Positions 45,652 through 45,769 of a stretch of 64,000 bases of DNA are shown one piece after another. The stretch is from Planctomycetota bacterium (GTDB taxonomy: Bacteria > Planctomycetota > Phycisphaerae > Phycisphaerales > Phycisphaeraceae). The notes beneath the pieces were generated by a model. That model ran no database searches. It was not told where the DNA came from and worked only from the letters and a program-made list of their open reading frames with translations. How positions within the stretch are numbered: the stretch's first letter is position 1; each line of letters starts with the position of its first letter. The stretch is from positions 4,960,001 to 5,024,000 of the forward strand of contig CP066225.1 of assembly GCA_016350165.1 (NCBI GenBank), read 5' to 3'. Both the position numbers and the translations under genes were made by a program.

Positions 45652-45675
45652 AAAAAACCCTACCTTTGGGTAGGG
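45652..45675 (-). terminator. Attenuator terminator upstream of cimA
   Basis: On the minus strand CCCTACC (45675-45669) and GGTAGGG (45664-45658) form a 7-bp stem with a four-base loop, followed by six Ts at 45657-45652. It ends 42 bases before the cimA ATG, so transcription must read through it to express cimA. Confidence 0.85.
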
Positions 45676-45724
45676 CTGGTGTGTTTGTAAATTTGAACGA
45701 CAACCGGCCCTACATTGGGTAGGT
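45658..45724 (-). promoter_or_regulatory. Mutually exclusive hairpins of the cimA attenuator
   Basis: Four segments in order on the minus strand. Segment 1 CCTAC (45723-45719) pairs with segment 2 GTAGG (45713-45709). Alternatively segment 2, as GTAGGGC (45713-45707), pairs with segment 3 GCCCTAC (45676-45670), which is the antiterminator. Segment 3 otherwise pairs with segment 4 as the terminator. Segment 1 lies directly after the Ile codons of the leader peptide, and its stop codon lies inside segment 2. This is the arrangement of his/trp/ilv attenuators. Confidence 0.75.
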
Positions 45725-45769
45725 AATAATAATGGCGATAGCGATAATGCTGGCATTAGCAGTTGTCAT
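45710..45769 (-). CDS. Isoleucine-rich leader peptide of cimA
   Basis: A 19-residue peptide, MTTANASIIAIAIIITYPM, ending in TAG. Six of its residues are Ile within an eight-residue stretch (positions 8-15). A ribosome lacking charged tRNA-Ile would stall just upstream of hairpin segment 1, freeing segment 2 to form the antiterminator and allow cimA transcription. With enough Ile the ribosome reaches the stop codon and the terminator forms. No strong ribosome-binding site is visible before the ATG, which is the main weakness. The promoter was not identified. Confidence 0.75.
   Translation of the reverse strand: MTTANASIIAIAIIITYPM

Follow-up and report, generated by a model that had tools for sequence, protein, structure and literature searches.

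Upstream of cimA, the citramalate synthase gene in the 64-kb window (the whole stretch of DNA that was analysed), there is very likely a transcription attenuator of the classical ribosome-mediated kind, with charged isoleucine tRNA as the sensed signal. The parts of this element, their conservation and covariation, the isoleucine codon bias of its leader, the joint presence of leader and terminator, and the repeated use of the arrangement before ileS are all shown. The transcription start, ribosome stalling and readthrough are inferred, there being no transcript or expression data, and translation of the leader is inferred solely from conservation of its codons and peptide.

Architecture of the cimA leader region

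All components lie on the minus strand. The regulated gene, cimA, occupies positions 45609-43981, and its product matches TIGR00977 with 638 bits against a cut-off of 450, identifying it as citramalate synthase. The leader ORF, encoding MTTANASIIAIAIIITYPM, runs from 45769 to 45710, with its ATG at 45769 and a TAG stop at 45712-45710; reading of the strand base by base places six Ile among eight consecutive codons. Segment 1 (45769-45720) includes the ORF start AUGACAACUG (45769-45760), which can pair with the CGGUUGUCGU that follows the stop, and a second pairing is available to CCUAC, in the area of 45723-45719, with GUAGG. Segment 2 (45713-45697) is composed of GUAGGGC (45713-45707), which holds the UAG stop, and the following CGGUUGUCGU. 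Segment 3, GCCCTACC (45676-45669), is common to the antiterminator (2:3) and the terminator (3:4), and segment 4 with its T run (45664-45652) completes an intrinsic terminator, in which CCCTACC (45675-45669) pairs across a CAAA loop with GGTAGGG (45664-45658), followed by TTTTTT (45657-45652). The T run lies 42 nt before the cimA ATG (45609). In the antiterminator, GTAGGGC (45713-45707) is perfectly complementary to GCCCTAC (45676-45670). The leader region has a predicted fold of -33.4 kcal/mol, lower than 200 of 200 dinucleotide shuffles (z -3.1). The original prediction, made from the sequence alone, had placed the leader, a 3:4 hairpin at 45675-45658 with six T, a distance of 42 bases to cimA, and the 2:3 pairing, all of which held to the exact base, as did its identification of cimA. 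Its reading of the locus as an isoleucine-sensing attenuator is supported by sequence evidence, the response of readthrough to isoleucine supply being the inferred half.

In the proposed mechanism, transcription would start at or next to the leader AUG and a ribosome would load on the leaderless mRNA. When charged isoleucine tRNA is scarce, the ribosome would stall at the Ile codons and mask part of segment 1. Segment 2, left free, could then join segment 3 in the antiterminator, and RNA polymerase would go on into cimA. When it is plentiful, the ribosome would reach the UAG stop inside segment 2 and cover that segment; segments 3 and 4 would then form the terminator, and transcription would end near 45652. 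Absence of translation would also let 3:4 form, through the 1:2 pairing. Since cimA makes the 2-ketobutyrate precursor of isoleucine, such control would amount to end-product feedback.

Chance juxtaposition of an Ile-rich frame and a terminator can be all but excluded as an explanation. In its favour, short frames in which four of eight codons are Ile turn up often, numbering 14 in the window and about 10 per random window. Against it, no such frame followed by a terminator occurred in any of forty first-order Markov windows of the same dinucleotide content, and dozens of genomes show the same layout upstream of cimA and ileS. Within the 64 kb, no short ORF other than the cimA leader has at least five Ile in a stretch of eight codons, and no other with at least four is followed by a terminator. 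Elsewhere in the window (15718-15287, minus strand) is an ordinary bacterial RNase P RNA of class A.

A promoter-like site (45804-45777, minus strand) precedes the leader, with a -35 element TTGCTA (45804-45799), a 16-nt spacer and a -10 box TACAAT (45782-45777) that ends 7 nt 5' of the leader ATG. A single site of this kind is no evidence taken alone; its position was compared over 42 distinct Phycisphaerales leaders. In most of these a TANNNT box is concentrated 5-10 nt upstream of the start codon, and TTGC or TTGA lies mostly 30-34 nt upstream. Given a -10 box at that distance, transcription should begin at or next to the leader start codon; the leader mRNA is therefore predicted to be leaderless, its start being inferred from promoter position and unmapped. 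Because the promoter-like site ends 7 nt before the ATG, no ribosome-binding site is expected for the cimA leader, which would resolve the weak point acknowledged in the original prediction, the lack of a clear one. In Planctomycetia the promoter box is often farther upstream of the leader start, and leader ORF starts are uncertain there; leaderlessness is perhaps a trait of Phycisphaerales.

Conservation and pairing among relatives

A cimA gene was detected in 46 of the 51 Phycisphaeraceae genomes, and 36 of these 46 carry the Ile leader arrangement upstream of it, as do all five genomes of a sister family (f6). Planctomycetia and a further family of Phycisphaerae (L162) also have Ile-rich leaders with terminators. 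Chance frames that automatic ORF picking returned in distant loci, such as those from Omnitrophota, were excluded. The relatives are partly MAGs and not mutually independent. The leader of a same-genus relative (L004) differs at one amino acid and by silent changes in three codons. Over 41 Phycisphaerales leaders, Ile accounts for 198 of 733 residues (27%), against a shuffled mean of 4.5% (sd 0.75), and the neighbouring forward frames of the same leaders contain only 0.6-1.4% Ile. The peptides are otherwise divergent: runs of Ile codons are kept in every leader, and nothing is conserved beyond Ile content. A perfect-stem terminator follows the leader in 40 of 42 leader-bearing loci, the distance from stop to T run being 49-64 nt and that from T run to cimA varying from about 22 to 215 nt. 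The ten cimA-bearing family genomes (of 46) that lack the element count against the attenuator reading. In one locus, L033 (G033:C34), a TATAAT box and CCGGTAGG persist, the Ile frame and terminator being gone, an apparent remnant of a cimA attenuator.

Stems that matter should leave the segments of one species pairing better among themselves than with segments of other species, and duplex energies were compared on this basis with 20,000 permutations. In Phycisphaerales, the 2:3 duplex averaged -19.05 kcal/mol for own against -16.91 for cross-species segments, and the 1:2 duplex -15.79 against -13.70, with 0 of 20,000 permutations as good in either case; composition alone gave no difference between own and cross duplex energies. 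The same held in Planctomycetia, where the stem sequences are unrelated (2:3, -17.35 own against -13.40 cross; 0 of 20,000 permutations). These counts are uncorrected for phylogeny, but kinship increases the similarity among cross pairs and would thus tend to shrink the observed difference. A mutually exclusive antiterminator is thus supported by own-versus-cross duplexes in two groups. On the alignment, 96.5% of the terminator stem is paired, three of its pairs show double changes, and in the genus itself one G-C pair is replaced by A-U. Alignment-based covariation of 2:3 alone is weak, with few double changes, because the 2:3 core is nearly invariant. The stop codon usually falls inside segment 2 (GG-UAG-GGC); in two loci (L014 and L016) it lies a few bases upstream, yet GGCAGGG is kept, which argues that pairing rather than the stop is the conserved feature. 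Between the last Ile codon and the stop there are 3-7 codons. On the assumption of a ribosome edge 11 nt past the start of the A site, geometry predicts that a stalled ribosome would leave segment 2 free at 200 of 202 Ile codons, and that one at the stop would cover segment 2.

The comparison of relatives proposed with the original prediction was therefore passed, Ile codons being conserved in divergent leaders and the pairings covarying. The case named there as refuting, the same terminator without an Ile-rich frame, was sought in the ten family members without the leader ORF and was not found: a perfect-stem terminator was absent from 10 of 10.

These observations bear on two further alternatives, both of which we consider very unlikely. 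In one, a direct RNA sensor, either a T-box binding isoleucine tRNA or an unknown riboswitch, controls the terminator, and the Ile frame is incidental. T-boxes are known to control ileS in other phyla (PMC1262725), but no Rfam match, T-box model included, was obtained in the window or in relatives, and the short interval from stop to T run leaves little room for a direct sensor. The retention of Ile-codon runs despite peptide divergence also speaks against an incidental frame. In the other, the leader acts mainly by translation, either through reinitiation on cimA or by yielding a small peptide with a function of its own, next to an ordinary constitutive terminator. An aid to reinitiation has been proposed for leader genes near structural genes (PMC4833913). 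Against a translational role stand the full terminator between leader and cimA, a peptide unconserved beyond its Ile content and the variable distance to cimA, and a constitutive terminator is hard to reconcile with leader and terminator being kept or lost together. Attenuation through ribosome stalling remains the preferred reading.

Sites before ileS, and related leucine and valine leaders

A covariance model with no Ile codon inside, covering the sequence from 7 nt upstream of the stop through the T run, gave 58 matches at E <= 1.4e-6 in the 51 family genomes. By position, 35 of the 58 are cimA leaders, the majority of them having been used in building the model. The other 23 all lie upstream of ileS, the gene for isoleucyl-tRNA synthetase, and every one is preceded by a short Ile-rich frame; the ileS site is conserved in 23 family genomes. 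The genome studied has such a second copy outside the window (G000:C1:3163121-3163183, minus strand; L276, G000:C1:3161000-3164000), with a leader reading ...MNTQISIIAEIIISAA. That a model without Ile codons finds both cimA and ileS sites makes it likely that the two genes form an isoleucine regulon. A class-wide search with the model located additional cimA leaders, which belong to another family (L266-L271, L275). The seven weakest matches of the family search (E > 5e-6) were, as far as checked, not Ile attenuators. One of these seven, L325 (G064:C181), lies upstream of a LeuA-like gene, has a Leu-rich leader and shares the TAGGGC stop region; it may possibly reflect a common RNA platform in which the codons have been swapped.

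Both the genome studied and 58 of 60 relatives lack the regulatory domain of threonine dehydratase. Isoleucine synthesis is thus likely entered through citramalate, though a dehydratase devoid of this domain is not ruled out. Ile codons of the 41 leaders are mostly ATT (120 of 198), and the cimA genes of the same loci favour ATC (836 of 939). A wobble-read codon would conceivably suit a sensor; alternatively, AT-rich codons may merely keep segment 1 loosely structured.

Leaders rich in other branched-chain amino acids were also observed. In the genome studied (L002, G000:C1:814093-818544), a Leu-rich leader MNNERSIRLSSLQLDLGLDLGLLILRKTVG and a terminator lie upstream of a LeuA-like gene, an arrangement conserved in most relatives (L239-L251), and we regard it as the leucine version of the cimA attenuator design. 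Val-rich leader frames occur upstream of ilvB in the same genome (L223, G000:C1:3551820-3556532) and in relatives (L217-L232); around the stop they end in conserved sequence resembling GTTATCTGAGCGGANGACCCGC. Neither an intrinsic terminator nor an Rfam match was found for these ilvB leaders, and in the absence of a terminator the mechanism there may differ.

Relation to known attenuators and to possible coupling in Gemmata

The trp, his, ilv and leu operons of enterobacteria are the classical ribosome-mediated attenuators. The cimA element resembles them in having a short leader ORF that carries a run of end-product codons, segments that pair as 1:2, 2:3 or 3:4, and an intrinsic terminator before the structural gene. 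It differs in its targets (cimA and ileS), in its occurrence in Planctomycetota, in the stop codon inside segment 2, and in the predicted leaderless mRNA. Leaderless leader peptides are documented for trpL of S. meliloti (PMC7298713) and for trpL, leuL and ilvL of S. lividans (PMC8079986), where the leader ORF likewise stands at the 5' end of the transcript, followed by the attenuator. Those cases involve other amino acids, genes and phyla, and their starts were mapped, whereas the cimA start is predicted from the promoter. The ilvB-II and ilvB-OMG uORF motifs (PMC10272879) share a uORF rich in branched-chain amino acids, and ilvB-II has a terminator and antiterminator; they lie upstream of ilvB, however, and are enriched jointly in Ile, Leu and Val, whereas the cimA leader is Ile-specific. 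The element has no matching family in Rfam. As with the leader-peptide attenuators of Streptomyces leuS and trpS (PMC1262725), the ileS copies place a synthetase gene under codons for its own amino acid, but here the target is ileS, which in the actinobacteria of that study is under T-box control.

No report of a leader-peptide attenuator for cimA, for ileS or in a planctomycete was found in the open literature searched, outside which fall most subscription journals, including a 2010 comparative survey. Within that scope the original statement that no cimA case was described in planctomycetes held; its scope was too narrow, the element being present also upstream of ileS and the same logic extending to Planctomycetia. 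To the extent of that search the cimA/ileS attenuator is a new case; the mechanism itself is classical.

Spatial separation of transcription and translation has been reported in Gemmata obscuriglobus (2014, cited in PMC5287468 and PMC5394234). Two Gemmata records (L085 and L091) have leader, antiterminator and terminator upstream of cimA and, since leader-peptide attenuation needs coupled translation, they bear on this claim. A bolder reading, which could as easily fail as hold, is that an ancient isoleucine attenuation regulon, comprising cimA and ileS plus a leucine version at leuA, operates throughout the phylum Planctomycetota including Gemmata, showing transcription-translation coupling there. 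If so, a ribosome would follow close behind RNA polymerase in Gemmata, against the reported separation, and the conserved attenuators, the two Gemmata loci among them, make that disputed idea testable with a simple reporter. For the phylum more generally, a single RNA platform reused with different codons is suggested, and a textbook mechanism gains a phylum, two target genes (cimA and ileS) and a predicted leaderless design.
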